Source: a virus
DNA length: 64,000 nucleotides
IMG/VR virus record: IMGVR_UViG_3300036792_000218
Location: 28,370 to 92,369 of that record
Strand: one strand, 5' to 3'
Part shown: positions 15,720 through 58,334 of the stretch, piece after piece
Layout of the letters: the number at the start of each line of letters is the position of its first letter
Numbering within the stretch: position 1 is the first letter of the stretch
Position numbers and translations under genes: made by a program
Notes under the pieces: generated by a model
What the model was told of the DNA's origin: nothing
Databases searched by the model: none
What the model saw: the letters and a program-made list of their open reading frames with translations, nothing else

Positions 15720-15771
15720 AAAGGACTGCCCCCCGTTCGCGGCCTGCCCCGGTGGCACGGCCGCCACTTAA

Positions 15772-20942: not shown

Positions 20943-20990
20943 CTTACGGAGACAACATTATCCGTTCATAATAATGTCGTCAACTTATTC
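20943..20990 (-). promoter_or_regulatory. P-family promoter P1
   Basis: On the minus strand, -35 TTGACG (20978-20983) and -10 TAATGT (20955-20960) are exactly 17 bp apart. TGTCTCCGTAAGC follows. It is the first of eight matching promoters. The -10/-35 region contains a GACAAC...GTTGTC-type dyad, here degenerate on the -35 side. Confidence 0.8.
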
Positions 20991-38419: not shown

Positions 38420-39087
38420 GACGCGGCACCGCCCTCGATCACGTCGAGCATCGCGGCGAGCAGCTTGCAGTCACCGAGCGCGGTGTGCCGCACGAAGGCG
38501 TCCGGGTCGACGCCGAGCGCGATCGCCAGGTCGTCGGTGCCGGCGTCGATCGGCGGCACGGTGAAACCGGGGTTGTCGCTGCTGCGCAGGTAGCCGTACG
38601 CCATCGACCCGATGTCCCGCAGCCGGTAGTGCCACGGTTGCGGGTCCTGCCCGTCGTGCTGCAGGAGCGCGGACAGGAACCCCGCGTCGAACACGGGGTT
38701 GGCCGCGAGCAGGATCACGTCATGAAGGAAGCCGGCCAGGTGCGCGGCGAGGTCAGACGGGTCAGACCAGAGGTACTTGCCGCCGCGGGTCAGGTTCCAG
38801 ATGTTCCGGGGCGCGGTCTCCCAGGTGTACATCACGGCCCGGCGGGCGGCGACCTCACCCGGCGTCGGGTGCCGCATCCCGGCAGTCCGTTCCTCGAACC
38901 GGCCGACCCTCAGCGCCTCCGGGTCGGCCAGGGCCTCGACGGGCCCGACGCGGTACAGCCATTCCTGGCCGGTGTCGCGCCGGATCATGCCCAGTTCCCA
39001 GATGACCCCGCTGCCGCCCTCGTAGTCGGGTGTAAGCGACGTGGTCTCGCAGTCGACGATCACGACTGGCCGGTGCGGCGCGGTCAC
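38416..39087 (-). CDS. DnaQ-like 3'-5' exonuclease
   Basis: From GTG 39087 the 223-residue protein shows a DEDD exonuclease. Exo I is VVIVDCETTSL (Asp12, Glu14). Exo II is LLAANPVFDAGFL (Asp near 138). Exo III is HTALGDCKLL (His201, Asp206). The spacing suits single-domain RNase T/DnaQ-type enzymes that trim single-stranded DNA. It is followed by a Cas4/AddB-like nuclease and an annealing protein, so it probably processes ends during phage recombination or repair. Confidence 0.85.
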   Translation of the reverse strand: MTAPHRPVVIVDCETTSLTPDYEGGSGVIWELGMIRRDTGQEWLYRVGPVEALADPEALRVGRFEERTAGMRHPTPGEVAARRAVMYTWETAPRNIWNLTRGGKYLWSDPSDLAAHLAGFLHDVILLAANPVFDAGFLSALLQHDGQDPQPWHYRLRDIGSMAYGYLRSSDNPGFTVPPIDAGTDDLAIALGVDPDAFVRHTALGDCKLLAAMLDVIEGGAAS

Positions 39088-40085: not shown

Positions 40086-40972
40086 CCCGTGGCCGCCTTG
40101 TCACTGCTGGCGAGCTTGCCGCGCTTGGCGGCGATCGCCTTGCGGAGCGCGTTGGCCGTGACGGGCTTGAGCCGCCCCGCGTCGTGCGCGGCTTTGATCT
40201 CGCCCTCGACCCGGTCGGCGTCCTCGTCGGTGACGATCCCCGCCAGGGCGACACCCCAGTCGGTGTCACCCGCCGCCGCGTCCGCCGGGGTCGCCTCCTT
40301 CGGGGTCGCCTCCTTCGGCTGCTCAGCCCTCGTCACCTTCCCGCGCCGTCCCTGCTCGGGGCTCGGCACGTGCCGTTCGGCGTGACCGTCCGCCCCTGCG
40401 CTGTTCTCGGCGGTCGGGTCCTCCCGGTCACCCTTGGCCCACTGGTCGAGCGCGACCCCGAACCGCATGGCGGCGTTGCGGAGCGCGTCACCGATCAGCA
40501 CCTTCTCGGGTTCGAACTGGTTGGTCGGGACCGTCCCGTACCCGGCGCGCTTCTTCCCGCAGACCGTGAGCCAGATCCACAGGCCGACCGGGGTGCCGGT
40601 CGCGGTCCGCTCGAACTTCGGCGGCGCGTTCGCGACCACCTGCTCGACGATGGCCGCGTTTCCCGTAGCCATCGCGGCTCTGAGAAGCTCCGGGTCCGGG
40701 TCGGTCGCCTGCGGGTCCCAGCCCCACAGCGGGTCGACGCTGAGCAGCCTGGCGGTGACGTCCGCGTGTCCGACGAAGTCGATGTGTATGTGCGCGGTCG
40801 TCATGTACGACTTGCAGCCGTCGCACTTCTTTTTGGAGTGGTTGCCGCACTGGCCGATCTTGCTGTTGCGGCAGTCGTTGCAGTTGACGCGCGGTAGCTT
40901 GCCGATCTCTTCCGGCTTGAACTGGGCGCGGAGTTCCAGCAGCTTCGCGGCCATGTCGATCGCGTCGCTCAC
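40082..40972 (-). CDS. Rad52/ERF-type single-strand annealing protein
   Basis: The 296-residue protein starts with two Cys pairs (CNDCRNSKIGQCGN and CDGCKSY, about 30-55). A domain common in actinophage and integrative-element recombination loci follows (about 60-190): HIDFVGHADVTARLLSVDPL, VGLWIWLTVCGKKRAGYG, LIGDALRNAAMRFGVALDQW. The rest is a charged linker and a helical tail. The conserved part is that of proteins annotated as RecT/ERF/Rad52-like ssDNA-annealing factors. With the adjacent nucleases it makes a recombination cassette. Confidence 0.75.
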   Translation of the reverse strand: MSDAIDMAAKLLELRAQFKPEEIGKLPRVNCNDCRNSKIGQCGNHSKKKCDGCKSYMTTAHIHIDFVGHADVTARLLSVDPLWGWDPQATDPDPELLRAAMATGNAAIVEQVVANAPPKFERTATGTPVGLWIWLTVCGKKRAGYGTVPTNQFEPEKVLIGDALRNAAMRFGVALDQWAKGDREDPTAENSAGADGHAERHVPSPEQGRRGKVTRAEQPKEATPKEATPADAAAGDTDWGVALAGIVTDEDADRVEGEIKAAHDAGRLKPVTANALRKAIAAKRGKLASSDKAATG

Positions 40973-44558: not shown

Positions 44559-45314
44559 TCACCGCCCGCCGGCGGCCGCCGCCTGCGGCTCCTGCCGCCG
44601 CATCCACGCCGCCAGCCGCAGCCGCGCGCCTTCCCTGACGCCCCCGGTGCCCGCCTTCGCGTGAACGCGGGCCAGGTGACCGCGCACCGTCCCCTCGGCG
44701 ATCCCCAGCTCCCCGGCGATCTCCGCCGCCGTCATCCGCCGCCGCGCGTACAGCACCGCGACCTCCCGCTCACGCGGCGTCAGCGCGGTACCGAGCAGCC
44801 CGGCCGACCTCGACGGCGCGCACGCCTTCGCCAGCAGGTACGCGTGATGCAGCCTCAGCAGCCCGCCGCCCGCCCCGAGGGCACTGTCAGCCCGCTCCCA
44901 GAAGTCAGGCGCCTGCCACAGCAGCCCCGTCTCCGCGTGCCTGACCGCCGTGAGGGAAACACAGGTCAGGCCCGCCAGGTCCGGCTGGCTCATCCCCGCC
45001 GCCCGCCGCCTCGCGGCGAGCCCCGCCGACAGCGCGTCACCCGCCGCCACCAGGACCCGCACCGCAGGGTCAGCCGCGACCAGCGGAACACGGAACTGCC
45101 CCTGCCCGCCCGCACGCCGGGTAAGCGCCCCGGCGCCGGCCAGGTACCGCAGGCCCCGCAGGCAGGTCAGCGTCGAGTACCCCGTGGCCCGGCTCAGCTC
45201 CTCGCCGCCCGGCGCGGCATCCCCCGGCCGCAGGGAGCCGTCACGGATGCGGGCCCGGACCATGTCCGCGACGACCAGGTACTTCCTCGTCCCCGGCGCA
45301 GCCGCCTCCCCCAT
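44559..45314 (-). CDS. Triple-HTH regulator: GntR-like, XRE-like and LuxR-like
   Basis: From ATG 45314, overlapping the upstream stop, the 251-residue protein carries three DNA-binding-type segments in order. First comes a GntR-like winged helix (about 8-70: KYLVVADMVRARIRDGSLRP, LSRATGYSTLTCLRGLRYLA). An XRE-like HTH follows (about 85-120: ARRRAAGMSQPDLAGLTCVS, LTAVRHAETGLLW). A LuxR/GerE HTH ends it (about 165-225: LTPREREVAVLYARRRMTAA, EIAGELGIAEGTVRGHLARV). No receiver or ligand domain is evident. The four small genes upstream are coupled to it. It may integrate several signals or bind a composite operator. Confidence 0.7.
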   Translation of the reverse strand: MGEAAAPGTRKYLVVADMVRARIRDGSLRPGDAAPGGEELSRATGYSTLTCLRGLRYLAGAGALTRRAGGQGQFRVPLVAADPAVRVLVAAGDALSAGLAARRRAAGMSQPDLAGLTCVSLTAVRHAETGLLWQAPDFWERADSALGAGGGLLRLHHAYLLAKACAPSRSAGLLGTALTPREREVAVLYARRRMTAAEIAGELGIAEGTVRGHLARVHAKAGTGGVREGARLRLAAWMRRQEPQAAAAGGR

Positions 45315-46369: not shown

Positions 46370-47575
46370 TTAGATCAAGCCCATCCGCCAGGCCAGGCCG
46401 CGCAGGTCCCGGCCGCCGGCCTTTCTCCGCGCCTCGTCGAGCATGCTCCGCACCAGCTCCCGCAGCAGGGGACTGTTCAGCACCTGCGCCGGGGAAAGGT
46501 GCTCGGCCCGCTTCAGCGCCGCGGCGGCGCGCCCGTCTTTCCCCTGCATGGCGAACGCCCGCCCCTGCTCCATCAGCAGCGCGCCCCGCCGGTTGTTCGA
46601 CGCGAGCGCACGCGGCTCGACCTGGGACGCGTGCTCAAGCGCCCGCTCCGCGTTCCCGGCCTCAACCGACAGCGACGTGCGCCACACCCCGACGTTGCTC
46701 GCGCCGAACAGCTCCCACGCGTCGGGCTCGTCGCCGAGCGGTGCGGCGATCCTCGCGGCCTCCGCCCCGTGGTCATCGGCCCCCGCGTGGTCGCCGCTGA
46801 CCGCGCAGGCCAGCGCCGCGCTCAGCCTGAGCATCCCGTAGACCTCCATGGCCATGCGGGACTGCCCGGCCAGCGGCTCGAACCTGTCGGCCGCGTCCGG
46901 CATCGTCATCAGGGCACGGGGCTTGTTCGTCGAGCTCCGGGCGTGCGCCATGCCGTACGCGGCCGCCGCCTCCCAAACCGGGTCACCGAGCAGCGCCGCG
47001 GCCTGCCTGCCCCGCTCCGCGGCAACCCACGCCAGGTCCGGCTGTGCCGCGTACCGCAGCGTGATCACGGCGGTGGCGGTGGCGGGGACGAGCAGCCGTA
47101 GTGCTTCCTCCCGGTCGTGGCCGTTCGCCGTGCCCGCCTGCACCTCAAGCTCGCCGATCAGCGTGGGGAGGATCGGCAGGAGCGCGGCATAGTCCGACCA
47201 GCGCAGCGCCCGGTCCGCCTGGTCGTTCAGGTCCCGCAGAAAGGGGACCGGCCGCGCGGCGATGTCCGGCGGGTCGTCGGGGGACGCGTCGAGCAGCGCG
47301 GCGCGGAGCGGGTTCAGGGGCCACGCGTCGCGGCCGGCCTGCACTTCAGGGGCGGGCTCGCCGAGCAGCGTGTCCGCGCTGACGTCCAGCACCCCGGCCA
47401 GGGCGGCGATGTCGGCGCGCTTGTCAAGCGGTATGCGCCCGTTCTCGACCTTCGACAGCCAGCCTTCGGAATGCCCGACAAGGCCCGAGGCCTGCGCCAG
47501 CGTCAGGCCTTTCGCGCGGCGTGCCATCCTGACGGCCAGCCCTATGCTGACGCGATCCGTGCTAATCTCGTTCAT
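46370..47575 (-). CDS. XRE-family regulator with TPR-like C-terminal region
   Basis: From ATG 47575 the 401-residue protein has an N-terminal XRE HTH (about 8-60: IGLAVRMARRAKGLTLAQAS, GLVGHSEGWLSKVENGRI). A long helical repeat region follows (about 120-395) typical of Streptomyces XRE-TPR regulators (LAWVAAERGRQAAALLGDPV, GNAERALEHASQVEPRALAS). Such proteins often sense peptides or regulate nearby mobile genes. Both neighbouring leftward genes have their own terminators, so it is a single-gene unit. Confidence 0.75.
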   Translation of the reverse strand: MNEISTDRVSIGLAVRMARRAKGLTLAQASGLVGHSEGWLSKVENGRIPLDKRADIAALAGVLDVSADTLLGEPAPEVQAGRDAWPLNPLRAALLDASPDDPPDIAARPVPFLRDLNDQADRALRWSDYAALLPILPTLIGELEVQAGTANGHDREEALRLLVPATATAVITLRYAAQPDLAWVAAERGRQAAALLGDPVWEAAAAYGMAHARSSTNKPRALMTMPDAADRFEPLAGQSRMAMEVYGMLRLSAALACAVSGDHAGADDHGAEAARIAAPLGDEPDAWELFGASNVGVWRTSLSVEAGNAERALEHASQVEPRALASNNRRGALLMEQGRAFAMQGKDGRAAAALKRAEHLSPAQVLNSPLLRELVRSMLDEARRKAGGRDLRGLAWRMGLI

Positions 47576-47732: not shown

Positions 47733-48221
47733 TCACGCCCCGCGTACCACGGCGGCGTCCACGGGCAGCCCGAGCGCCTTGCGGACCCGCAGCGCGACGG
47801 TAACCGCGCCGTCAAGGGTCCCCGACGTGACTGCCAGCAGGAGCGTGACCGCGCCGCCCTCGCCGTCCTCCACGGTCCCGCTCGGAACCGCCGGCTCGTC
47901 CCTCGTCGCCGCGGCCAGGCCGGCGTGCAGCGACGTGAGCGTGATGCCCTCAGGCGCGGGGTAGCTGGCGAACTCGACGCGCCACGCCCGCCGGGCAAGC
48001 ACGTACGTTCCCCGTTTAGGCACCAGGCGGACTAGTCCCTCGTCGGCCAGCAGCCGCACGCCTTCCTGAACGGTCCCGAGCGCGACCGACGCGTACGTGC
48101 GCCGGAATTCCTTCACCAGTTCCGTACCGGGCGGCAGCATGCCGTCTTCGTCGAAATCACCGGCGATCACCTTCCGCCGCAGCTCCCGCGCTATCAGTTC
48201 ATGCAGGGCGGGACCTGACAC
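47733..48221 (-). CDS. GntR-family repressor, KorSA-like
   Basis: I chose the GTG at 48221 because GGGGAAAGAG lies six bases upstream; a GTG at 48248 would add nine residues. The 162-residue protein has a GntR winged helix (about 1-72: LHELIARELRRKVIAGDFDE, ELVKEFRRTYASVALGTVQE, LLADEGLVRLVPKRGTYVL). A short C-terminal domain follows. It is divergent from the operon that includes the TraB-like translocase, as KorSA is from the transfer genes of pSAM2. It most likely represses that operon and itself at the palindrome at 48334. Confidence 0.8.
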   Translation of the reverse strand: MSGPALHELIARELRRKVIAGDFDEDGMLPPGTELVKEFRRTYASVALGTVQEGVRLLADEGLVRLVPKRGTYVLARRAWRVEFASYPAPEGITLTSLHAGLAAATRDEPAVPSGTVEDGEGGAVTLLLAVTSGTLDGAVTVALRVRKALGLPVDAAVVRGA

Positions 48222-48296
48222 GCGGCTCTTTCCCCGTTTCGCTCGCACAGTGTTCCGCCAATCGTAGGGCCGCCTTCTCCGGATCAGAAGCACGGG

Positions 48297-48347
48297 TTGA
48301 CAACGCGCCGCGCCTATCCCAGTATGGTCTCATACCTGTTAACAGGT
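48297..48347 (+). promoter_or_regulatory. Promoter and palindromic operator for the transfer-type operon
   Basis: TTGACA (48297-48302) is followed 17 bp later by CAGTAT and then TATGGT, -10-like boxes. A perfect 14-bp palindrome, ACCTGTTAACAGGT (48334-48347), lies just downstream, preceded by GGTCTCATACC. A repressor bound there would block transcription. The GntR gene diverges from the same region. Confidence 0.65.
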
Positions 48348-48409
48348 CAGAGCAACCCGAACGAGGAACGGAGACCACCGGCCATGCGAGACAACCCGAG
48401 GCGGTCACG

Positions 48410-49042
48410 GTGACCGCCGTCGCCGCGCTGCGGCACTACGCCCGCACCAGGCGCGCCCTCACCGTCCTCGCCGAGGGGACGCAAGAGCACGCGTACGCCG
48501 TGAACGACCTCATCGACGCCTGGGAGGCAATCCCCGTGCAGCTGCTCTGGGTCGCCAGGCACGTCGACCGGCACACCTACCGGCAGACCGGGGCAGTCAT
48601 GTACGCCCCGGTCTACCGCACCCGCCTCGCCGGCATCCCCGCCGCGCTGCGCCGTTACGCAGCCGCCGAACGGGCACTGTGCGAGAACTCCATCACCGAG
48701 TACGCCGCAGGTACCGACGAGGAAACCCCCGAGTACCTGCACGCCAACAACGAGGCCGCCGCCGCTCACGCGTCCGTCCCGTGGTGCCTGCTCTGGCTTA
48801 CCGAGCTGATCAGCCGCCGCATCGTCCGCGAGCTCGACTACTTCAACCGGACCGGGCAGCCGCGCGAGGCCGGGTCCCCGGTCGCCTGCTGGCTCGGCTG
48901 GCTGCTGGTTACCGCCGCTGTCGCGGCAGGCGCCTGCCTCATCACGAGCGCCGTCACCCAGCCCGCAACCTGCACTGCCCCGTCCCCGGTGCCGTCCGTG
49001 TTCACCCCGGCGCCTGTCGCGGCCCCGCAGGTGACGCCGTGA
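48410..49042 (+). CDS. Membrane-anchored protein, first gene of the transfer-type operon
   Basis: The GTG at 48410 overlaps the stop of a nine-codon leader frame starting at ATG 48384, which may couple translation. The 210-residue protein is helical and Ala-rich, with one C-terminal transmembrane segment (about 165-183, ACWLGWLLVTAAVAAGACLI) and a short Pro-rich tail. It is the first gene of the rightward operon. Its role is unknown, but a membrane-bound factor next to TraB-type genes could assist transfer or spread. Confidence 0.55.
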   Translation: MTAVAALRHYARTRRALTVLAEGTQEHAYAVNDLIDAWEAIPVQLLWVARHVDRHTYRQTGAVMYAPVYRTRLAGIPAALRRYAAAERALCENSITEYAAGTDEETPEYLHANNEAAAAHASVPWCLLWLTELISRRIVRELDYFNRTGQPREAGSPVACWLGWLLVTAAVAAGACLITSAVTQPATCTAPSPVPSVFTPAPVAAPQVTP

Positions 49043-49329
49043 CCACGCTGACCCCTGCCGGCTGGCGCGCCCGCGCGGCCTGCCGCGGCAAGGACCCCGA
49101 GCAGTTCTTCGGCCCCGACGGCGAGACACCCGCACAGCAGGCAGTCCGCGAGGCGCAGGCCATCGTGATCTGCGCCCAGTGCCCCGTACGCGCCACCTGC
49201 CTGCAATGGGCCATGGACACCAACACGAAGCAAGGCGTCTGGGGCGGCACGGGCGAGGCCGAGCGCGCCCGCACCCGCCGCCAGAGGACCCGCCACGCCG
49301 CGAAGGCACGCCGGAGGGCAGCCGCATGA
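49039..49329 (+). CDS. WhiB-family iron-sulphur regulator
   Basis: GTG 49039 overlaps the preceding stop (GTGA). The 96 residues hold the four Cys ligands of the WhiB [4Fe-4S] cluster: Cys15, Cys45, Cys48 and Cys54 (CAQCPVRATC). The GVWGGTGEAER turn and a basic C-terminal tail follow. WhiB proteins bind sigma-A and DNA. Phage-borne examples (WhiB of TM4) act as dominant negatives and affect superinfection and septation. Here it is in the transfer-type operon, so it may adjust the host transcription state during transfer or lysogeny. Confidence 0.9.
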   Translation: MTTLTPAGWRARAACRGKDPEQFFGPDGETPAQQAVREAQAIVICAQCPVRATCLQWAMDTNTKQGVWGGTGEAERARTRRQRTRHAAKARRRAAA

Positions 49330-49568
49330 TCGTCAAGGTCGCCGCCGTCGTCCTCCTGACCGCCCTCTGCATGGTCAGCGTTCACCTGCTCGCCGTCCTG
49401 CTGCTCGCCGTGGTGGCGCTCGCGGCCCTGCTGATCGTCCACCTGCTGATCGTCGCCGTCGTCACCGTCGGCACGGTCCTGCTGGCCCTGGCGTGGGCGA
49501 TCAGCCAGGCCGCGACCGAAACCGGCTGGCGGGTCGTCCCCTGCGTACTGAACGGGGCCACGGCATGA
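49326..49568 (+). CDS. Small hydrophobic multi-span membrane protein
   Basis: The ATG at 49326 overlaps the WhiB stop. The 80-residue product is almost wholly hydrophobic, with two or three transmembrane helices (VAAVVLLTALCMVSVHLLAV, LLLAVVALAALLIVHLLIVA, VVTVGTVLLALAWAI). It resembles the small Spd-like spread proteins of Streptomyces plasmids in size and composition, without clear homology. It could help intramycelial plasmid spread. Confidence 0.55.
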   Translation: MIVKVAAVVLLTALCMVSVHLLAVLLLAVVALAALLIVHLLIVAVVTVGTVLLALAWAISQAATETGWRVVPCVLNGATA

Positions 49569-50182
49569 GCACCGAACCGGAGTACATGAGCCGCACCGAC
49601 CGGGAACGCTGGCAGGCCGCCCGCACCTTGACCGACGTCGGCAACCTCATGGCCGACTGGATACAGGGCAAGATCACCACCCGGCCCGGCTACTACGGCC
49701 CCACCGACCTCGACCAGCCGGACACCCTCGTCCCGCTGCTCGCCAGCCTGTGCCGGGACGGGTTCGTCACGCACCAGTCGCAGGAAGGCTTTTCCGGGTG
49801 GGGCTACGACGGCGCGTGGTGGGTCCAGCACGCTTTCGTGGAGGCGTTCACCACCGAGGACGTCGTTGACCGCCTCTACGAGACCGCGTCGTCCCGCCTG
49901 ATCGTCATCAGCCACGACCCGGCCACACTGCCCGCCTGGCGCTACCGGCGAGACAGCGACTTCACCGCCACCTACCGCATAGGCCGCCCCTACACCGGCG
50001 CCGGCAGCTCACTGCCCCGCCGTCACATCCGCGACCCCCACATCGGGTTCGGGGCGTGCGGCAAGGAGGCCACCGACGCGCTGTGCTCCGCATGGCAGGT
50101 CACGGTCGCCGACCTCGCGCCAGGACCCGAGACGTTCCTGTGGGACTTCCTGTCCGGCCTCGACCTGGAGCCAGGCGAATGA
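49565..50182 (+). CDS. DUF6919-like protein
   Basis: The 205-residue protein contains ERWQAARTLTDVGNLMADWI, KITTRPGYYGPTDLDQPDTL and RDGFVTHQSQEGFSGWGYDG. The succession of an early Trp, PGYYGP and QSQEGF is the signature I associate with DUF6919 proteins of Streptomyces plasmids and integrative elements. The function is unknown. It overlaps the membrane protein upstream and the TraB-like gene downstream. Confidence 0.65.
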   Translation: MSTEPEYMSRTDRERWQAARTLTDVGNLMADWIQGKITTRPGYYGPTDLDQPDTLVPLLASLCRDGFVTHQSQEGFSGWGYDGAWWVQHAFVEAFTTEDVVDRLYETASSRLIVISHDPATLPAWRYRRDSDFTATYRIGRPYTGAGSSLPRRHIRDPHIGFGACGKEATDALCSAWQVTVADLAPGPETFLWDFLSGLDLEPGE

Positions 50183-52632
50183 GCGTGATCCCCGCGCCGC
50201 GCCGTGGCCGCCGGCCCCGTCCCGCCGGTGACGACGACACGCCGCCGCTGAGCGACGCGATCGAGCGACTGCTGCCCGGTGACCCCGAGCCCCCGGCCGA
50301 CCCGCCCGCAGAGCCCGCCGACGCCGAGCCCAGCCCCGGCACAGGGCAGGAGGAGCCAGCCGCGCCCGCCGCGGACGACGACGACCCGCCCGAGCCGAAA
50401 CCCGGCCGCCCCGGACTCGAAGAAGCGCAGCGCGCCGCGATCATCCCCGGTATCCCCGGCCAGCGCTGGCAGGCCGTCAAGGACAGCCTCGAACTCGCCG
50501 GCTACCGGACGGCGTTCCACGGCATACGCGCCGTGCCCGTGTACGCGCCCGGCTCGCTCGTCTACGCGGTCCGCGGCGGCGCCCGCCTCGGCCTCCGCTA
50601 CGCGCTGTGGATGGACGTCACGCACCTGCGGGTCGTCATCTCGCAGTCCCTGGCCCGCGGCGACGCCGGAAACGGCGACGTGCTCCGCGCCCACAACGAC
50701 AGGGAACGCACCAAGAAGGGAAACCGGAAACTCGCCGCCGGGACCGCCGCCACCGCCGCCCTCACGTCCTACGTGCTGGCGGAGGGAACCCCGCCGGCAG
50801 TCCAGATCGGCGCGGCCGCCGCCGCGTTCCTCACCCTGGTCGCGTTCGGGAAGCCGGACGGCAGCCCGTTCCTGCCGAGGGCGATCCTGCCCCCGAACTA
50901 CCAGCCCCCGAGCTTCGAGCTGATCCGCGAGGCGCTGGTAGCGATCATCCCGGCCATCAAGACGCACGTCGCCGCGAAGGGTGACCTTGACTGGGTCAGC
51001 GACGTGCACCGCGACGGCGACGGTTGGGCCGTCGAGCTCGACCTGCCCAAGGGCGTCACGGCTGAGCTGATCATTAAGAAGCGCAAGGAACTGTCCTCCG
51101 CGCTCCGCCGGCCACTCAGCGCCGTGTGGCCCGAGGGCGTGCCCGGCGAGCACGAGGGGCGCCTGTTCATCTGGATCGGCCGGCATGACTGGGCGAAAAA
51201 AAAGCTCGTCCCGCACCCGCTGCTCAAGGCCGGCACCCCCGACTTCTTCGACCTGGTCCCGTTCGGCACGATGCCACGCGGCAACGCGATCACCGTCCCG
51301 CTTTTCCAGACGAACTGGCTGTTCGGCGGGGCCATGGGCTCCGGCAAGACCAGCGCCATCCGGACCCTGCTCGCCGCCGCCGCGCTCGACACCGTCGTCG
51401 ACCTGTGGACCCACGAGTTCAGCGGCAAGGGCGACCTTGAGCCGTACGCCCAGGTCAGCTACCGCTACGTGTCCGGCCTGGATGACGAGGCGATCGCCTA
51501 CGCCGCCGAGTCCGTCAAGATGCTCAAGGCCGAGCTGCAGCGCCGCCAGGCGATATGGAAGAAGATCCCGCGCGAGAAGCGAACCGAAGCGCACCTGACC
51601 CGCGAGATCGCGATGGCCGACAAGCGGCTGCGGCCCATCGTCGCGTCGTTTGACGAGTGCCATAACGCGTTCCAGCACCCGACGTACGGCAAGCAGATCC
51701 AGACCGACCTTGAGTGGGTCATGCGGATCGGCCGGGCGTACGGCATCGTCGTCATCCTCGGCACCCAGCGGCCCGGCGCGGACTCGATCCCGGTCATCAT
51801 CACCGCCGTCACCGTGGCCCGCTGCTGCCTGAAGGTCAGCGACCACACGACCAACGACATGATCCTCGGCAGCGGCTCGTACAACAAGGGCCACGACGCC
51901 ACCGTGTTCCGCCTGCCGTACACGGACGCGGGCTGCTGCTGGCTCAAGGGCGTCGGCGACACGATCGCCCCGAAGATTTATTATCTCAACGATCCCGCGA
52001 CGCTGAAGATCGCGAACCGGGCCCGCGCGCTGCGGGAGAAGGCCGGGGTCCTGTCCGGGTACGCGCTCGGTGAGGAAGAGGACCAGGGCGAGCGGAACCT
52101 GCTCGGCGACGTCCACGCGGTGTTCGGGCCCGGTGAGCGGTTCCTGTACTGGCCGACGATCGCCGAGCGGCTCGCGGAGGGCTACCGGGGGACGTACACG
52201 GGCGTCACCGGTGACGGCGTGTCGGCCGACGTCCGCGAGCTCGCAGACATCGACTCCGACAACGGCCGGGAACCGGGCGGCAAGGTCCTCACCGGCCTGA
52301 AGCGCACCACGATCTCGCTCGCCGTCAACGGCGGCCCGGACGACCCCGACCAGGAAGCCGGCGACGACCCGCCCGCGCCCCCGCGGCCCGAGGCGGACAC
52401 CGAGCTGCTGACCGCCGCGGCGGAGATGGTCATCAGGGAGCAGTGGGCGTCAACGTCGACCCTCGGGCGCAAGCTCCGCCTCGGCCACGACCGCGCCGGC
52501 ACGCTCATGGACGAGCTCGCGGGCCACGGCGTCGTCGGCGAGCCGGGCGACGACCCGAAGGTGCGCGCCGTGCTGAAGACCGAAGACGACCTCGATGCCG
52601 TACTCGAGGCGATCAGGGGCGCGGACTCATGA
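50179..52632 (+). CDS. TraB/FtsK-type DNA translocase
   Basis: The 817-residue protein has a Pro/Asp-rich N-terminus and a hydrophobic membrane region (about 175-220). An alpha domain precedes the motor. The motor shows Walker A GGAMGSGKTS (Lys390) and Walker B RPIVASFDE (Asp492, Glu493), then an RQxP-like VVILGTQRPGAD. A C-terminal winged helix lies at about 739-817 (LLTAAAEMVIREQWASTSTL, GHDRAGTLMDELAGHGVVGE), as in FtsK-gamma and TraB DNA-recognition domains. Such hexameric pumps move double-stranded DNA; in Streptomyces plasmids TraB alone drives conjugation. A repeat-rich candidate recognition locus follows directly. Confidence 0.9.
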   Translation: MSVIPAPRRGRRPRPAGDDDTPPLSDAIERLLPGDPEPPADPPAEPADAEPSPGTGQEEPAAPAADDDDPPEPKPGRPGLEEAQRAAIIPGIPGQRWQAVKDSLELAGYRTAFHGIRAVPVYAPGSLVYAVRGGARLGLRYALWMDVTHLRVVISQSLARGDAGNGDVLRAHNDRERTKKGNRKLAAGTAATAALTSYVLAEGTPPAVQIGAAAAAFLTLVAFGKPDGSPFLPRAILPPNYQPPSFELIREALVAIIPAIKTHVAAKGDLDWVSDVHRDGDGWAVELDLPKGVTAELIIKKRKELSSALRRPLSAVWPEGVPGEHEGRLFIWIGRHDWAKKKLVPHPLLKAGTPDFFDLVPFGTMPRGNAITVPLFQTNWLFGGAMGSGKTSAIRTLLAAAALDTVVDLWTHEFSGKGDLEPYAQVSYRYVSGLDDEAIAYAAESVKMLKAELQRRQAIWKKIPREKRTEAHLTREIAMADKRLRPIVASFDECHNAFQHPTYGKQIQTDLEWVMRIGRAYGIVVILGTQRPGADSIPVIITAVTVARCCLKVSDHTTNDMILGSGSYNKGHDATVFRLPYTDAGCCWLKGVGDTIAPKIYYLNDPATLKIANRARALREKAGVLSGYALGEEEDQGERNLLGDVHAVFGPGERFLYWPTIAERLAEGYRGTYTGVTGDGVSADVRELADIDSDNGREPGGKVLTGLKRTTISLAVNGGPDDPDQEAGDDPPAPPRPEADTELLTAAAEMVIREQWASTSTLGRKLRLGHDRAGTLMDELAGHGVVGEPGDDPKVRAVLKTEDDLDAVLEAIRGADS

Positions 52633-52657
52633 TGTTGCGCACCCGCCGCGAGCCACG

Positions 52658-52799
52658 CAACAGCCCAACAACGTGTTGGGCTAGCACAACACGCGCTGAC
52701 CTGCGGAAACGTCAGATTGTCCGATTCAGCGCAACACGGCCGAGGGCCGCACAACACCAGCACAACACGCTGACCTGCGGAAACACGGTTCGCGCAACA
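52658..52799. other. Candidate clt locus: seven CAACA-core repeats after the TraB-like gene
   Basis: CAACA motifs, mostly in GCACAACAC or GCGCAACAC context, occur at 52658, 52666, 52687, 52732, 52752, 52763 and 52795. AGCCCAACA (52662-52670) and TGTTGGGCT (52674-52682) form a 9-bp inverted repeat. A 17-bp direct repeat, CGCTGACCTGCGGAAAC, occurs at 52694-52710 and 52768-52784. The region 52633-52857 is non-coding. Streptomyces TraB proteins load at short direct repeats near the end of traB, so this position fits a cis-acting transfer locus. Confidence 0.6.
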
Positions 52800-52857
52800 A
52801 ACCGGCGGAACGGGCCCCCACGGGCCGCCCTAGGGACAACCACGATGGGACAGGGGC

Positions 52858-53434
52858 TTGAGCCGGATCACAGTCAGCGTCTGGCGCTGTGGCGGGTGCG
52901 GGAAGAAACGCGGGCTGCGCCACACCTGCCCGGGCGGCCGCGGCCGCAGGACACGCGACCGCATCGCGCTCGGCGTAGAGGTCCGCTGCCCGCACTGCCG
53001 CAAGCGGTCACTGAACCCGCTCACCCACACCTGCTCACCGAAGTCCGACTTCCGCAAGCGCCAGGCCGCCCACAAGCGCCGGGTCGCAGCCGAGAAACGC
53101 AAGCAGAAACGGAAGCTGTCCGCCGCACGGAAACGGGCCCGCGTCAAGGAACGCAGGCGCCTGGCAGCGGAGAAGCGCAAGCAGGCAGCGGCTGCGGCCG
53201 CAGCGAAGCGGAAGGCCGGGGCCCGCGCCCGGTCACACGACAAGACCCGGCACGACCCCGAGACCTGCACGGACCCCTACTGCACGAGCTTCCGCTGCCG
53301 CACCTACAAGGGCGGCAAGGAAGCCGGCAAGGCCGAGGGCCGCGCCGAGGGCTATGCGGCGGGCTACGCCGAGGGCTACGACAAGGGCTTCGCCGACGGG
53401 TTCGCCGCCGGGCAGGCCTCCGCGGCCAAGTTAG
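52858..53434 (+). CDS. Zinc-finger, Lys-rich protein with apparently lost stop
   Basis: From TTG 52858 the 191-residue protein has two N-terminal Cys pairs (CGGCGKKRGLRHTC and CPHCRKRSLNPLTHTC). A long Lys/Arg-rich coiled coil (about 65-120) and CTDPYCTSFRC follow. A Gly-x-x-x repeat tail (GKAEGRAEGYAAGYAEGYDK) ends it. The annotated end is a TAG at 53432-53434, one base out of frame. In the actual frame codon TTA at 53431 replaces it and the ribosome would read to 54237. I think a single-base change removed the stop. Nucleic-acid binding is likely. Confidence 0.5.
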
Positions 53435-53443
53435 GAGATCCCA

Positions 53444-53785
53444 GTGAGCGTGATCATCACGATCCTGATCACCGTCCTGATCGCGGTGCCCGCGCACGTG
53501 GCGCTGTTCCTGCTGACGCACCGGCTCATCGCCGCCGCGCTCGCGGTGCCCGCGTACGTGGTGCTGTGCCTGGCGCACCCGGTCCACAAGTGCCCCCGCT
53601 GCCGCGGGGCCAGGGTGGTCAAGAAGGGCAACAGTCACCCCATGTGCCGCTGGTGCAAGGGCCAGGGCAAAACCAAGCGGCTCGGCGGCCACCTGGTCCA
53701 CCGCGTGTTCTGGGACCACGTCGGCCCCTGGATCAGGGACAAGTACCTGGATGCCGCTCACCGGCTGCGGGACGGCCAGTCATGA
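53444..53785 (+). CDS. Membrane protein with DnaJ-type zinc finger
   Basis: GTG 53444 follows TTAGGAGATCCCA. Residues 1-46 form two transmembrane helices (VIITILITVLIAVPAHVALF, IAAALAVPAYVVLCLA). A cytoplasmic CPRCRGARVVKKGNSHPMCR then gives, with a second Cys pair, a Cys-x2-Cys-x-Gly-type zinc finger similar to DnaJ. A basic C-terminal helix completes it. It probably sits at the membrane and binds nucleic acid or protein, a suitable partner for a DNA pump. Confidence 0.6.
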   Translation: MSVIITILITVLIAVPAHVALFLLTHRLIAAALAVPAYVVLCLAHPVHKCPRCRGARVVKKGNSHPMCRWCKGQGKTKRLGGHLVHRVFWDHVGPWIRDKYLDAAHRLRDGQS

Positions 53786-54237
53786 GCGGCGGCAAGTTCG
53801 AGGGCGTCGTCTCGGGCACCTGGTCGACCACGAGCAGCGGGTGGTGGGTAAAGGCCGTGGCCGCCGTCGCCGTCGTGGGCGCGCTGGACGGGTACCTGTG
53901 GACCCTCCTGCGGTTCCTCGCCGTGCTGCTCACCGTGGTCCTCGTCCTGTTCACCGCGCTGGCGGTACCCGCGGCCGTCTGGATGCGCCGGTGGACCAGC
54001 CGCCAGCACCAGCAGTTCAACCGGCAGCTCGCCGCGCTCCCCGACGAGCCGCGCCAGGCCGTCAAGGCAGCCGCGCCGCCCGTGATCCAGAACTTCTACG
54101 GCGGAACCAACGTGTTCATGCTGCCCGGATCACAGCTCCCGGCCGGAATCAGCGAGAACAGCCAGGTCATCCGGGCTTACCCGCTCCGCGACGCCGTCAC
54201 CGACACCACGGAGGGAGGTCCACGCCATGAGAACTGA
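53782..54237 (+). CDS. Two-span membrane protein of the transfer-type operon
   Basis: The 151-residue protein begins MSGGKFEGVVSGTWSTTSS. Two hydrophobic stretches follow (about 22-40 and 45-68: VKAVAAVAVVGALDGYLWTL, FLAVLLTVVLVLFTALAVPA). A soluble C-terminal part ends AYPLRDAVTDTTEGGPRHEN. It overlaps the previous gene by four bases and the next by 11. No family is recognised; membrane-anchored accessory function is inferred. Confidence 0.5.
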   Translation: MSGGKFEGVVSGTWSTTSSGWWVKAVAAVAVVGALDGYLWTLLRFLAVLLTVVLVLFTALAVPAAVWMRRWTSRQHQQFNRQLAALPDEPRQAVKAAAPPVIQNFYGGTNVFMLPGSQLPAGISENSQVIRAYPLRDAVTDTTEGGPRHEN

Positions 54238-54337
54238 CGACTGCGGCGCCTGCGGAGGATCGGGCACCGAACCGAACCCGTACTTCCCGCAGAAGACACG
54301 CCCGTGCGGCACCTGCCACGGCAGCGGCTGCAAGTAG
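54227..54337 (+). CDS. 36-residue double CxxCxGxG zinc finger
   Basis: ATG 54227 is preceded by GGAGGGAGGTCCACGCC. The peptide reads CGACGGSG and, 18 residues later, CGTCHGSG, exactly the DnaJ-type Cys-x2-Cys-x-Gly-x-Gly pair. Two such motifs can bind one zinc ion, so this is a minimal DnaJ-like finger. It ends at TAG 54335-54337 and is followed by the first of two repeated spacer elements. Confidence 0.6.
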   Translation: MRTDDCGACGGSGTEPNPYFPQKTRPCGTCHGSGCK

Positions 54338-54340
54338 GAA

Positions 54341-54433
54341 CTGACGGCCCCGAGGGCGGCCAGCGCACGCACTGGCCGCCCGACCGGGCAATCAGCACCA
54401 GGGGCAAGCCCGGCCCCACCGAACAGGAGGAAA
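54341..54433 (+). repeat. Repeated intercistronic element, copy 1
   Basis: This spacer and the one at 54643-54738 are near-identical over about 90 bases. Each begins CTGACGGCCCCGAGGGCGGC, continues with an ACTGGCCGCC complement, then GACCGGGCAATCAGCAC and a second GCCCGGCCCC arm, and ends in AACAGGAGGAA. They can form two hairpins and supply the ribosome-binding site of the next gene. Confidence 0.7.
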
Positions 54434-54439
54434 CGAGAA

Positions 54440-54646
54440 ATGGGATTTTTCAAACGCAGCGCGCCGGAACCGGCCCCCACCGAGACGCGCGGCCAGCGCG
54501 AGCAGCGCGACGCCCGCGAGGCGATCGTCAAGGACCTGACCAAGAACATCCATGACCGCAACCGCGCGGCACAGGTCCGGGCCCTGCCCGGCGGCGAGGA
54601 GATGGTCGCCGAAGCGGTCAGGCGCTCGGCCAACTGGTGTTCCTGA
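54440..54646 (+). CDS. Small charged protein between repeat elements
   Basis: The 68 residues (MGFFKRSAPEPAPTETRGQR...) form a charged helix with EQRDAREAIVKDLTKNIHDR and a C-terminal Cys. The gene is flanked by two copies of the repeated spacer and has a strong AACAGGAGGAAAC ribosome-binding site, so translation should be efficient. The function is unknown. Confidence 0.5.
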   Translation: MGFFKRSAPEPAPTETRGQREQRDAREAIVKDLTKNIHDRNRAAQVRALPGGEEMVAEAVRRSANWCS

Positions 54647-54738
54647 CGGCCCCGAGGGCGGCCAGCACCACACCGGGACTGGCCGCCTGACCGGGCAATC
54701 AGCACAGGGGCACGCCCGGCCCCAGCCAACAGGAGGAA
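54643..54738 (+). repeat. Repeated intercistronic element, copy 2
   Basis: Second copy of the element at 54341, with the same CTGACGGCCCCGAGGGCGGC start, GACCGGGCAATCAGCAC core and AACAGGAGGAA end. A shorter relative at 55053-55102 shares CTGACGGC and the GGCCGCCCGGC/GCCGGGCGGCC hairpin. Confidence 0.7.
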
Positions 54739-54742
54739 CCAC

Positions 54743-55057
54743 ATGGCACTACCACCGATGACACCCGAGCAGCGCGCCGACGCCCGGCTGAAGGCCGCCG
54801 CTACGCGCGGGGAACGCGCCGAGGTCAGGCGGCGCCTCAAGCGCGGGGAACTGACCCTGGCCCAGGTCCTCGCCGACGCCGCCACCAGCGACGTCATCGG
54901 CAAGATGAAGGCCTCCGCGCTGCTGGAAGCGCTCCCCGGTATCGGGAAGGTCCGCGCGCGGCAGCTCATGGGCCAGATCGGCATCGCGGAGAACCGTCGC
55001 GTCCGCGGCCTGGGCGCCGGCCAGCGCAACGCGCTCGAGGCCGCGGTCACCGCCTGA
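54743..55057 (+). CDS. mIHF/sIHF-type integration host factor homologue
   Basis: The 104-residue protein matches actinobacterial mIHF over its whole length. LPPMTPEQRADARLKAAATR is followed by a long helix with RAEVRRRLKRGELTLAQVLA, then VIGKMKASALLEALPGIGKV, RARQLMGQIGIAENRRVRGL and GAGQRN. The helix-two-turn-helix with LPGxGKVRARQ is the DNA-bending motif. Host mIHF is essential for L5-type integration and organises chromosomes. An element-encoded copy could compact element DNA, assist integrase or support the transfer locus. It follows copy 2 of the repeated spacer. Confidence 0.9.
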   Translation: MALPPMTPEQRADARLKAAATRGERAEVRRRLKRGELTLAQVLADAATSDVIGKMKASALLEALPGIGKVRARQLMGQIGIAENRRVRGLGAGQRNALEAAVTA

Positions 55058-55102
55058 CGGCACCAGTTGGCCGCCCGGCACTTCCCCGCCGGGCGGCCAG
55101 GA
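55053..55102 (+). repeat. Shorter relative of the repeated spacer element
   Basis: CTGACGGC is followed by GGCCGCCCGGC, a short loop and GCCGGGCGGCC, the same hairpin plan as the 54.3 and 54.6 kb elements but without the GACCGGGCAATCAGCAC core. It precedes the DUF2637-like gene. Confidence 0.5.
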
Positions 55103-55133
55103 CCCCGCACGACACCCCATGAAAGGAACGGCG

Positions 55134-56327
55134 TTGACCGACACCGAAGCCGTACCGCGCCGCTCGTACCGCGACGAGCGCCGCGAGGACCAGCGCGTCG
55201 CGGCGCAGATCAGGCGCGACGACCAGGCGGCACGCGCGCAGGCTGCCCGCGATGACGCTGTCGCACGGGTGAAGACCCGCGCCGCCGCGAACAAGGCCCG
55301 GCAGGACCGGCGTTCCGCAGCGCGCAAGGCCCGTGCCGCCGCCGTCGCCGCCGCATGGTCGTGGGTGGCCCGGCACCTGATGGACCTGATGTTCGTACCG
55401 GTCATCACCGTCCCCGGCGCGCTCGCATGGGAAGCGATGGCCGCCTACGGTCACTCGCTCTGGGGGCCGCTCGGCGTCATCCTGCCCGCCTTCAGCGAGG
55501 GTGCCATGTGGGCATTCGACATCGCCGTCGAAGTCCGCCGCCACCGTGAGCCCGACAAGCCTGTCCGGCTCCTGCTGGCCGGCATGGCCGTCTTCGCCGC
55601 GTACGGGGCCGTCCTGAACTTCCTCCACGGCATGGCACGCACAACGGCGCACCACGGGATCACCACCGCGATAGCGATGGCGCTCGTGAGCGTCGCCGGG
55701 GTGACCGCCCGACAGATGATCACGGCACGGAGAATGACCCGCATCGAGCGGCGTACTGCCCGCAAGATCCGCAAGGCCCAGAGGGACGCGGTCGACAGGG
55801 CGACAGTCGACCTCCACGCACCCGGCGGGCCCCGGCTCGTGATGACCGCCGAACCGTCACCGGAGCCAGTCGCGGAGCCGTCAGAACCGGCCGTCCCCGA
55901 GCCGTCAGATGACGGCCCCCGACCCGTCACGGTGTCCGTCACCAAGAGCGCTTTCGGAACCCTCGCGCTGACCTTCACCCCGGCCGTCAAAATCCCGTCG
56001 GTCGATCCGTCACCGGAACCCGTCAAACCGCAGGCCACGCCACCCGTCGAGCCGTCACCGGAGGCACCCGGAACAGACCAGGGAACGACGCCCCCGGACC
56101 CGTCACGCAGGCCTCGCCGGCGACCCGGCCCGCAGGGGGCAGGCACGCCGCGCGGGAGGCATTCCAAGCTCGACGCCCTGATCGGCAAGGGCGGCCTGCC
56201 CAACAAGGAGATCGCCAAGCAGGCGCGCGTCTCCGTGTCCACCGTCGAACGCCGGCGCCGGGAACTGCGCGAGGCGGCAGAAGCGGCAACCAAGGTGACG
56301 GTGCTCGACGAGCGCCGCCACGCGTAA
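55134..56327 (+). CDS. DUF2637-like membrane protein with C-terminal HTH
   Basis: The TTG at 55134 follows AAAGGAACGGCG. The ATG at 55119 has no ribosome site and would add five residues. The 397-residue protein has a basic coiled-coil N-terminus (about 1-70) and four membrane segments (about 75-195, VPVITVPGALAWEAMAAYGH, LGVILPAFSEGAMWAFDIAV, LLLAGMAVFAAYGAVLNFLH, AIAMALVSVAGVTARQMI). A long Pro/Glu-rich linker and a C-terminal HTH (KLDALIGKGGLPNKEIAKQA, RVSVSTVERRRREL) follow. DUF2637-type proteins are characteristic of Streptomyces plasmids and integrative elements, usually beside tra genes. A role in DNA spread is inferred. Confidence 0.7.
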   Translation: MTDTEAVPRRSYRDERREDQRVAAQIRRDDQAARAQAARDDAVARVKTRAAANKARQDRRSAARKARAAAVAAAWSWVARHLMDLMFVPVITVPGALAWEAMAAYGHSLWGPLGVILPAFSEGAMWAFDIAVEVRRHREPDKPVRLLLAGMAVFAAYGAVLNFLHGMARTTAHHGITTAIAMALVSVAGVTARQMITARRMTRIERRTARKIRKAQRDAVDRATVDLHAPGGPRLVMTAEPSPEPVAEPSEPAVPEPSDDGPRPVTVSVTKSAFGTLALTFTPAVKIPSVDPSPEPVKPQATPPVEPSPEAPGTDQGTTPPDPSRRPRRRPGPQGAGTPRGRHSKLDALIGKGGLPNKEIAKQARVSVSTVERRRRELREAAEAATKVTVLDERRHA

Positions 56328-56376
56328 CCAGGCCACAACCACGACACCCGAGAAAACCAGGAAGAGGGAACAACAC

Positions 56377-56898
56377 ATGGCAAACGAAGCGCAGCAGGCC
56401 GGCGCAGCCCTCGCGGCAGCGCAGCTGGCCAGGGTACGCAAGGTACTCACCGTGCTCGACACGGAAACCGGAAGCCGCCAGTACGCGCTCGAGGACATCG
56501 CGCGCATCGTCGGGGAACCGGACGACACGCCGGGCACCGCGGACGGCCAGCTAACCGACTACGAGCAGGAGTACGCCGGCTTCTGGCGCCGGCTCGTCGA
56601 GAACCCGGACGGCACGCTCAACGCCGACCAGGTGAAGCGCGAGCTCCACGACTACAGCATGCTTATCCGCCAGGTACCCGAGGCGTACGACGGGGTCACT
56701 AACGGCCGGATCAGCAAGCCGAACACGATGCCGGGCCCCGTCATCGACGCGGTAGAGGAACGCATCAGCGACGCCGAAGACGACGCGATCAACGACCTGA
56801 TCACGAACCTGGAGGCGTACCCCGACCAGGCGTTTACCTCGATCGCCGAGGTCGTCGCCGTGATCCGCGGGATAACGGGAGTGACCGGTGGCAACTGA
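56377..56898 (+). CDS. Hypothetical protein, 173 residues
   Basis: Starts MANEAQQAGAALAAAQLARV, followed by YALEDIARIVGEPDDT and an acidic helical domain (YEQEYAGFWRRLVENPDGTL, AVEERISDAEDDAINDLITN). It is acidic, without Cys or membrane segments. It overlaps the next gene. Its position in the transfer-type operon is the only clue to function. Confidence 0.45.
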   Translation: MANEAQQAGAALAAAQLARVRKVLTVLDTETGSRQYALEDIARIVGEPDDTPGTADGQLTDYEQEYAGFWRRLVENPDGTLNADQVKRELHDYSMLIRQVPEAYDGVTNGRISKPNTMPGPVIDAVEERISDAEDDAINDLITNLEAYPDQAFTSIAEVVAVIRGITGVTGGN

Positions 56899-57373
56899 CC
56901 AGGGCCCGCACGGTCCGTTCAACACCGAGGCGCAGGTCCTCGCGCTGCCCGACGTCGAGGCCGTGTACGAGGCGGCGCACGAGTCGAACCGTCACGGGGT
57001 GCTCCGCGAGGGCTCCGAGGCGATCCTGCTGGCCGCGTGCGCCGACACGGGCGCCGACCCCGGTGAGTACGGGGCCAGGATGATCCGCTGGCTGGCAGAC
57101 TTCGGCCCGCAGGCCTGCCAGGTGTTCGCGGACCTGATCCGCCAGGCCGCGCACGGCAAGCCGGGACCGCACAGCGTCACGTTCGACCTGGCCGACGGTA
57201 ACAACACGCCGTTCGTGCTGACCGAGGCGCTCCAGTTGTTCGCGGACACGCAACGGCTCTTCGCCCACAAGAAGGACAGCAACAGCGCGTCGTGCAACGT
57301 GTGGGCGGAGCGCGCCGACGAGATGCGCGCCCAGGCCGTCGAAGTCATGCGAGAGGACCACCCGTCAACCTGA
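56888..57373 (+). CDS. Hypothetical protein, 161 residues
   Basis: From GTG 56888 it reads MATDQGPHGPFNTEAQVLAL, then helices with DPGEYGARMIRWLADFGPQA and ADLIRQAAHGKPGPHSV. A C-terminal helix contains EALQLFADTQRLFAHKKD. It is soluble. It ends 32 bases before a terminator and is the last gene of that transcript. Confidence 0.45.
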   Translation: MATDQGPHGPFNTEAQVLALPDVEAVYEAAHESNRHGVLREGSEAILLAACADTGADPGEYGARMIRWLADFGPQACQVFADLIRQAAHGKPGPHSVTFDLADGNNTPFVLTEALQLFADTQRLFAHKKDSNSASCNVWAERADEMRAQAVEVMREDHPST

Positions 57374-57404
57374 CACATGGAACGCCTGACACCCGCCACC
57401 GCCG

Positions 57405-57440
57405 AAGGGCCGGCATCCCGAGAGGGGGACGCCGGCCTTT
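57405..57440 (+). terminator. Terminator of the transfer-type operon
   Basis: GGCCGGC (57408-57414) pairs with GCCGGCC (57431-57437), extended by TCCC/GGGGA in the inner stem, followed by TTT. It lies just after the last gene of the 48.4-57.4 kb operon. Confidence 0.75.
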
Positions 57441-57482
57441 CGCATGTTTGCGCTGCTAGTCGCGCCGGGTGATCATCGAGGC

Positions 57483-58334
57483 ATGACGGGGGCAAACAAC
57501 TTCAGCGGGGACTGGGACGACACGGGGAGCGGCGGCCAGGGGTGCGCGAGGGGACGCCACTGCGCGGAGGCGGATTACCAGGGCAATGCTGCGCGGGGGC
57601 CGCGGGCGTTCTGCGAGACGGACCGGGCGCACGTCGGCAGCGTGATCCGCGACCTGCCGCAGGTGTACGTCGAGCTCCATTACAAGCTCGCCAAGGGACA
57701 GCAGCCCGACGGGCAACGGGTCAGCGGCGGCGGGAAGGAGGCACCGACCCCGCTCGACCTGGATATCGAGGCGTTCCTGCGGCACGTCATCCTGGTCGCG
57801 GTGTCGTGGGAGGAAGCGGTCCGGGTGGCGGCCCGGCTCTCACCGCTGCCCGACGGGCTGGTCCGCGACGGGACCGCGCTGCAGCGGGCCTGTGTGCTGC
57901 TGGCCGGCCGTGACCGTGACCGCTGCGGCCACCTGGACGTCCTGCTCGCGCTCGCCCCGGAGACGGTGAACCGCCCCGTAACGGGGTCGACGCGGCTGGC
58001 GGACCTTGAACCGGGCACGCTGATCCGGGTCGACTCGTCGGGGGACGCCTGGCAGAAACGCGACATGGACGGGACCGCTGCGGCCCTGGAGTTCCTGACG
58101 CTGAGCAGCCGGGCCCGCGCGGTCCTCGGGCTGAACCTCCAGTCGCGGCGCGTCGCCGTCCGCTGCGACGGGTGCGAGTCGATCGGGACGCTCAAGCAGC
58201 GGGAAGCGCTCGGAGGCGGCTGGGAGGCGGTCGTCCGCTGCTCGGCGTGCCCGCAGGTGTACATCGGGCAGCCGTTCGAGCTGCTGATGGGCCGGGAGTA
58301 CGCCGAGACGGTGAAGGCCGGGCACGCGCCCTAG
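57483..58334 (+). CDS. Conserved phage/ICE protein with zinc-like Cys
   Basis: From ATG 57483 the 283-residue protein has CARGRHCAEADYQGNAARGP and FCETDRAHVGSVIRDLPQVY, a signature I associate with many actinophage and integrative-element genomes. Helical segments follow, and two late Cys pairs (CDGCESIG and CSACPQ) probably form a zinc site. Despite frequent occurrence, no function is known to me. Its stop lies within a convergent hairpin. Confidence 0.6.
   Translation: MTGANNFSGDWDDTGSGGQGCARGRHCAEADYQGNAARGPRAFCETDRAHVGSVIRDLPQVYVELHYKLAKGQQPDGQRVSGGGKEAPTPLDLDIEAFLRHVILVAVSWEEAVRVAARLSPLPDGLVRDGTALQRACVLLAGRDRDRCGHLDVLLALAPETVNRPVTGSTRLADLEPGTLIRVDSSGDAWQKRDMDGTAAALEFLTLSSRARAVLGLNLQSRRVAVRCDGCESIGTLKQREALGGGWEAVVRCSACPQVYIGQPFELLMGREYAETVKAGHAP

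Follow-up and report, generated by a model that had tools for sequence, protein, structure and literature searches.

The stretch of DNA analyzed here (64,000 nucleotides; hereafter the window, to which positions refer) corresponds to bases 28370-92369 of the 92,369-bp virus record IMGVR_UViG_3300036792_000218, which comes from a metagenome. It contains a transfer (tra) operon built around a TraB-type DNA translocase, in which the following genes succeed one another: (i) a transmembrane (TM) protein; (ii) a WhiB-like regulator; (iii) a small TM protein; (iv) a DUF6919 protein; and (v) TraB. Successive genes share 4-base overlaps. Beyond traB, a non-coding gap precedes a zinc-ribbon gene, membrane proteins, a homologue of mIHF and a SpdB/DUF2637-like protein. 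An initial annotation had already described a rightward operon with membrane proteins, WhiB, DUF6919 and a TraB/FtsK translocase, and Pfam and phrog matches, open reading frames (ORFs) and hydropathy bear it out. The host is a high-GC actinomycete.

In this phage, the tra cassette and the head genes share one replicon. The last 127 bases of the record are an exact copy of its first 127 bases, which yields a circle of 92,242 bp, and genes for terminase, portal, major capsid and tape measure proteins lie in the same record, just outside the window. The presence of structural genes and traB on a single replicon, for which the initial annotation had asked, is hence given by a closed circle. The element is probably a temperate, circular, tailed actinomycete phage with a TraB-type conjugation cassette that provides it with a second exit besides the virion. 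This reading draws on the single replicon, the identity of TraB, the operon, the clt-like repeats and the conservation across phages; from these we infer regulation, DNA pumping and transfer.

The TraB translocase

TraB (817 amino acids; 50179-52632, + strand) matches FtsK_SpoIIIE weakly, FtsK_gamma with an E-value of 8.5e-14 and phrog_1358 with an E-value of 2.7e-23. It has the architecture of the TraB family: N-terminal membrane helices (residues ~166-224), a RecA-like motor of the FtsK kind that carries both Walker motifs, A and B (GAMGSGKT, Walker A, at 384; DE at 492), and a C-terminal winged helix of the TraB type (~641-716). A linker (721-734) and an FtsK-gamma domain (738-814) follow, so that the C-terminal winged helix of the initial annotation exists, not as a single domain but as two separate ones. 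The predicted structure (mean pLDDT, or predicted local distance difference test, of 83) presents the same succession of N-terminal helices, motor, winged helix, low-confidence linker and second winged domain, and Foldseek matches it to FtsK motors and to TcpA, a conjugation protein. The alignment with plasmid TraBs covers residues 84-718, and that with the TraB of plasmid pSVH1 covers residues 283-625.

In a 64-row tree, TraB is nested in the set of TraBs from plasmids, phages and actinomycete integrative and conjugative elements (AICEs), beside three viral contigs (100% support), while 13 chromosomal FtsKs form a clade of their own (100% support). This tree is the product of a quick search, and the placement of pAmyja1, pSVH1 and P. 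broussonetiae, which sit on long branches, is unsure. Grouping with plasmid and AICE TraBs or with chromosomal FtsKs had been set beforehand as a check, and judging by the tree the translocase is of the TraB type, not of the FtsK type; the alternative of an FtsK-type translocase was not borne out, its motor lying outside the FtsK clade. The closest cellular TraBs are found in chromosomes or metagenome-assembled genomes of Streptosporangiales-like actinomycetes and in Actinomadura.

The clt-like locus and a conserved box

Immediately after traB, a non-coding repeat cluster (52633-52810, + strand) forms a clt-like locus with six copies of GCRCAACA, five on the + strand and one on the - strand. 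These six sites lie within 167 bp (225 bp after traB were scanned; 0.005 expected), and the 92-kb record has only two others; the motif was chosen after inspection and, hence, the Poisson probability of ~2e-17 is overstated. The repeat-rich locus of the initial annotation turned out to be two things, namely this cluster and a coding gene (52858-53445).

A stronger case for clt than this single-motif figure is made by a general test of repeat-richness. Scored against its own locus, the 200-bp stretch after traB was exceptionally rich in repeats (p<=0.05) in 66% of 131 loci, vs 10.6% for 283 stretches downstream of other long genes (Fisher p 9e-31; the loci in these tests are mutually related and p-values serve as guides). 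The positive control pSVH1, which carries GACCCGGA repeats, ranks first. The TraB of pSVH1 binds repeated 8-bp motifs (PMC3583192), and a proven clt is located at the 3' end of traA (pWTY27 paper). The sequence criterion for clt, a repeat cluster adjoining traB, is found here, with TraB as its putative ligand. The CAACA motif is shared by the present phage and loci L098, L099 and L019, and a CGACA motif by L097, L133 and L017; in its wing, the winged helix of TraB reads xRKG in the CGACA group and has other residues in the CAACA group, which is suggestive in these few cases of a link between wing and motif.

The cluster also holds two copies of a conserved box, CTGACCTGCGGAAAC, at 52696-52710 and 52770-52784 (+ strand). 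Allowing up to 2 mismatches, 68 of 138 traB loci have the box CTGACCTGCRNAAAC on the + strand within 300 bp downstream of traB (71 hits on the + strand vs 4 on the - strand; 1.3 expected). It lies ~100 bp after the gene and stays constant while the adjoining repeats vary. pSVH1 has a single copy, CTGACCTGCGCAAAC (L008:8288-8303). This box might belong to clt, serve as a site for a host factor or be the promoter of the next gene. It is possibly a new element and a candidate component of clt, although no literature search was aimed at it.

Recurrence on phage genomes

Searched as nucleotides against phages and plasmids, the 13-kb region gave no match, and neither did a scan of viral contigs with the single TraB protein as query; relatives were recovered with an alignment as query. 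A 16-kb contig from a different metagenome (L099/G003) combines a terminase and a portal that are 77% and 62% identical to those of the present phage with a TraB-gamma protein. A second record, G002 (106,102 bp), is circular and also has a 127-bp end repeat; its head genes differ from those of the present phage, and its cassette has the same order (XRE, GntR, DUF6919, TraB, Zn, mIHF, Spd). TraB relatives occurred in 41 IMG/VR records; 25 of these also match a terminase or portal, and some of them may be prophages beside AICEs. Among closed replicons from isolates, pPaSha2, pAmyja1 and S. atratus unnamed3 carry phage and TraB-like gene sets, and at least a terminase and TraB are present on P. 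broussonetiae plasmid 3.

An additional FtsK-gamma domain

The FtsK-gamma domain (Pfam) that follows TraB's own winged helix was detected by the gamma profile in four of 136 TraBs, i.e., the present one and those of L097, L098 and L099, all of them on phage contigs. Two further rows of the same search were one FtsK and one phage RusA-gamma fusion. In Gordonia phage Kiko, gp52 (L009:5170-6207) is annotated as 'FtsK-like DNA translocase', yet it joins a RusA-like resolvase to an FtsK-gamma domain.

In Escherichia coli, R1300 of FtsK is required for reading FtsK orienting polar sequences (KOPS) (PMC2533119). The TraB residues aligned to the E. coli KOPS contacts N1296, R1300 and E1303 are D, T and D, and 13 of 13 actinobacterial FtsKs carry Arg at the position of R1300, where the four gamma-bearing TraBs have Thr, Ser, Glu and Asp, respectively one each. 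Because these contacts are lost, gamma is unlikely to act as a KOPS reader. The Xer-activating peptide of E. coli gamma is RQFRIGYNR (PMC5052618), and its first part is retained as RKLR/RKMR in the gamma-bearing TraBs; since the KOPS and XerD contacts overlap (PMC5052618), no distinct intact Xer face can be told apart. Gamma as the reader of the clt repeats was considered and rejected, as the gamma-less TraBs of L019, L133 and L017 adjoin the same CAACA or CGACA motifs.

The TraB-gamma fusion is seen in the clade of the present phage and, separately, in the pZL12-like phage-plasmid of S. atratus, whose distant TraB likewise ends in a winged-helix-like stretch and gamma. This TraB-like protein of the 99-kb S. 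atratus element (L168:40935-43328), with winged helix and gamma, is annotated as hypothetical, and the GntR/DUF2637/terminase layout around it resembles that of pZL12. No gamma domain was found in the FtsK-like protein of pZL12. We do not claim that gamma is exclusive to phages, as S. atratus-type homologues on plasmids of 152 kb and 399 kb align through the gamma region. A gamma domain placed after TraB's own winged helix, with the KOPS-reading arginine lost, looks new. As a tentative idea, and one that we hold to be somewhat doubtful, some phage-borne TraBs might be double-headed pumps, in which the winged helix would serve their own clt repeats and gamma, with its KOPS arginine replaced, a second target (e.g., a host Xer recombinase or another DNA site), thereby coupling the transfer of phage DNA to the chromosome-resolution machinery of the host.

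Regulators, neighboring genes and the phage half

Divergent from the tra operon lies a GntR-type regulator (47733-48293, - strand, start codon uncertain; PF00392, E 1.4e-7). KorSA-type repressors are characterized by a UTRA domain together with GntR. Pfam finds the GntR domain only and no UTRA in this regulator, whereas UTRA is present in the GntR counterparts of pAmyja1, the S. atratus phage-plasmid and pZL12; the initial annotation of a divergent KorSA-like repressor thus stands as to GntR and divergence, and a KorSA-type assignment, defined by GntR plus UTRA, is not supported. Next to it is an XRE-family regulator of 401 amino acids (46370-47575, - strand; HTH_31, E 1.6e-11; phrog_5823, E 1.5e-55), 69% identical to its counterpart in G002. 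A putative tra promoter (48297-48347, + strand) was recognized in the sequence as TTGACA-N17-CAGTAT plus a 14-bp perfect palindrome, ACCTGTTAACAGGT (48334-48347), with one further match within 2 mismatches, at 15825 (0.03 expected). This near-copy (15825-15838) adjoins the resolvase gene in a 762-bp non-coding stretch, which could house attP or a control region.

The first gene of the operon (48410-49042, + strand; ORF and hydropathy) encodes a protein with one TM segment. It is followed, all on the + strand, by the WhiB-like regulator (49039-49329; PF02467, E 2.2e-22), with homologues in 28 of the comparison loci, mostly close to traB; by a small protein with three hydrophobic segments according to hydropathy (49326-49568; 4-bp overlap with each neighbor); and by the DUF6919 protein (49565-50182; PF21897, E 4.7e-27), whose G002 homologue is also upstream of TraB. 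Downstream of the clt-like locus, and again on the + strand, lie: (i) the zinc-ribbon protein with Yae1-like repeats (52858-53445; PF09811, E 5e-4), a coding sequence with 12-bp repeats and homologues after TraB in L097, L098 and L099 as well; (ii) a membrane and zinc-binding protein (53444-53785; hydropathy), with 43-49% identity in all three gamma-bearing relatives; (iii) a membrane protein (53782-54237; hydropathy); (iv) the mIHF-like H2TH protein (54743-55057; PF22525, E 5.4e-28), correctly named in the initial annotation, with identities of 60% in G002 and 46% in G001; (v) the SpdB/DUF2637-like membrane protein with a C-terminal helix-turn-helix (HTH) (55119-56327), 50% identical to a homologue in G002; and (vi) three more genes (56377-58334), the last one a phrog_1568 DNA-binding protein. 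The DUF2637 likeness of the fifth was recovered as a weak HHalign match to a DUF2637 set (E 5e-5, probability 68%), and no Pfam match to DUF2637 was obtained for it.

Phage functions were identified in the window as well: tail proteins, an endolysin with GH25 and peptidoglycan-binding domains (7927-9069, + strand), a tyrosine integrase (13040-14527, + strand), a serine resolvase/invertase (15150-15767, - strand), a ParB-like protein (20989-22494, - strand; phrog_6218, E 4e-45), and exonuclease and single-strand annealing genes (39084-40972). A 251-residue protein (44559-45314) combines in one chain a GntR domain, an XRE-type HTH and an HTH of the LuxR/sigma-region-4 type. Scans with Rfam and for tRNAs gave no matches. 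An 18-bp repeat, GTTGCTTACAGAGACAAC, has seven copies (up to 3 mismatches), all on the + strand (20939, 23995, 27173, 59666, 60656, 60993 and 63301); those that were checked are intergenic, and the set looks like one of phage operators or promoters. The proposal of operators linking both halves of the window is supported in part, by the recurrence of the tra palindrome at 15825 with 2 mismatches and by the seven 18-bp repeats, at 20.9-27.2 kb and 59.7-63.3 kb.

Proposed mechanism and alternative explanations

If the phage does use its cassette as a second exit, the following course can be envisaged. In the lysogen, the GntR repressor would keep the tra operon off by binding ACCTGTTAACAGGT. On release, TraB would form a membrane-bound, hexameric, FtsK-like pump whose TraB-type winged helix would load onto the GCRCAACA repeats beside traB (clt), and the pump would move double-stranded phage DNA into the neighboring hypha; the SpdB-like and small membrane proteins would then aid spread along the mycelium.

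Several points weigh against this proposal. Transfer, phage particles, expression and regulation are predicted here from sequence, and the SpdB/DUF2637 assignment of the protein at 55119-56327 is weak. FtsK-like translocases with no assigned role also occur in isolated Streptomyces phages, Galactica among them and, therefore, a TraB on a phage need not mean conjugation. Candidate plasmid-type features of the replicon are the closed circle and the ParB-like gene, and an integrase gene is also on board, so that the lysogen may be chromosomal; neither ParA, nor a plasmid Rep, nor RepSA/Prim-Pol was recognized among the proteins tested. Furthermore, a 127-bp end repeat is the footprint that an assembler leaves of any circularly permuted molecule, and by itself it would not speak for plasmid maintenance.

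The pump might alternatively serve the phage's own mycelium only, driving its DNA through septa or into spores (intramycelial spread or segregation) with no delivery to a different strain. Streptomyces spd functions do spread plasmids within the mycelium, the isolated phages Galactica, Hiyaa and Anedea have kept FtsK-like translocases, and the added gamma is reminiscent of a segregation module; nevertheless, the clt-like locus and the TraB clade match those of transferring plasmids and AICEs, and pZL12, with a similar layout, is reported to transfer conjugally, which makes purely internal use unlikely. The gamma domain, its retained RKLR/RKMR peptide start, and the encoding of both a tyrosine integrase and a serine resolvase could also point to FtsK-like multimer resolution, in which gamma would activate a Xer-type recombinase or the motor would partner the phage resolvase. 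This is quite improbable for a motor that is TraB and not FtsK: 132 of 136 TraBs lack gamma, the four that have it have lost the KOPS-contact Arg, and serine resolvases need no FtsK.

It is more improbable still that an intact-looking transfer cassette, captured from an AICE, is carried unused as a decaying hitch-hiker. The cassette does move, as it sits with unrelated head genes in G000 and G002, but TraB is intact with its Walker motifs, the genes are coupled by 4-bp overlaps, and phages at 49-55% protein identity retain the repeat motif beside TraB. As for a chimera, i.e., separate molecules or an AICE beside or inserted in a prophage joined by the assembler, a metagenome-type record invites the suspicion; yet the closed circle, the even GC, the 18-bp repeats shared by both sides, and the linkage of cassette and phage repeated in two other records and in the closed isolate plasmids pPaSha2, pAmyja1 and that of S. 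atratus leave it scarcely credible.

Significance

According to papers on phage-plasmids, conjugation functions are mainly gained by P1-like elements after the loss of phage genes (PMC10879196, PMC11652158). Here, the single-protein TraB system of actinomycetes recurs on intact-looking phage genomes. This system has no relaxase or type IV channel visible to typing tools, and related plasmids are mostly typed as 'non-mobilizable'. If functional, it would give phages two exits, allow DNA movement where receptors are lacking, and possibly mobilize chromosomal DNA. For finding clt loci, the conserved box that follows traB offers a simple handle.

Comparison with known systems

A phage with a tra cassette is not new in principle, pZL12 being a published precedent. 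pZL12/phiZL12 is the plasmid-phage of Zhong et al. (2010). Like the present phage, pZL12 (GQ919031; Streptomyces; 90,435 bp) is a circular tailed phage of ~90 kb in which a GntR gene diverges from small ORFs, a membrane protein and an FtsK/SpoIIIE-like gene, directly followed in pZL12 by the terminase; unlike it, pZL12 has a TraB of another lineage, without gamma, and a GntR with UTRA. Papers citing the original description of pZL12 report a transfer locus and plaque formation (PMC3583192, PMC4487206, PMC5431353), transfer requiring a tra gene and two neighbors (PMC3583192).

pSVH1, from Streptomyces venezuelae, shares with the present phage the TraB family, the GntR, SpdB2, TraB order, and a repeat cluster followed by the CTGACCTGCGNAAAC box directly after traB, but it is a small plasmid without phage genes, with the repeat motif GACCCGGA and one winged helix only. 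AICEs have similar TraB, GntR, WhiB and integrase modules and lack capsid or tail genes. Both pAmyja1 (Amycolatopsis japonica; closed isolate plasmid of 92,539 bp) and pPaSha2 (Pseudonocardia alni) combine terminase, portal, capsid or tail genes with DUF2637 and TraB-like genes; the head-tail block of pAmyja1 is collinear with that of the present phage (24-66% protein identity) and its TraB-like protein is very distant, whereas pPaSha2 has a related TraB, without gamma, and unrelated head genes. Chromosomal FtsK resembles the present TraB in motor fold and gamma domain, but its motor belongs to a separate clade and the gamma described here is devoid of the KOPS arginine. The present element thus belongs to a known kind, with pZL12 as precedent. 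What sets it apart is that its TraB is of a different lineage and has a second head, and that its cassette is found in phages whose capsids differ.

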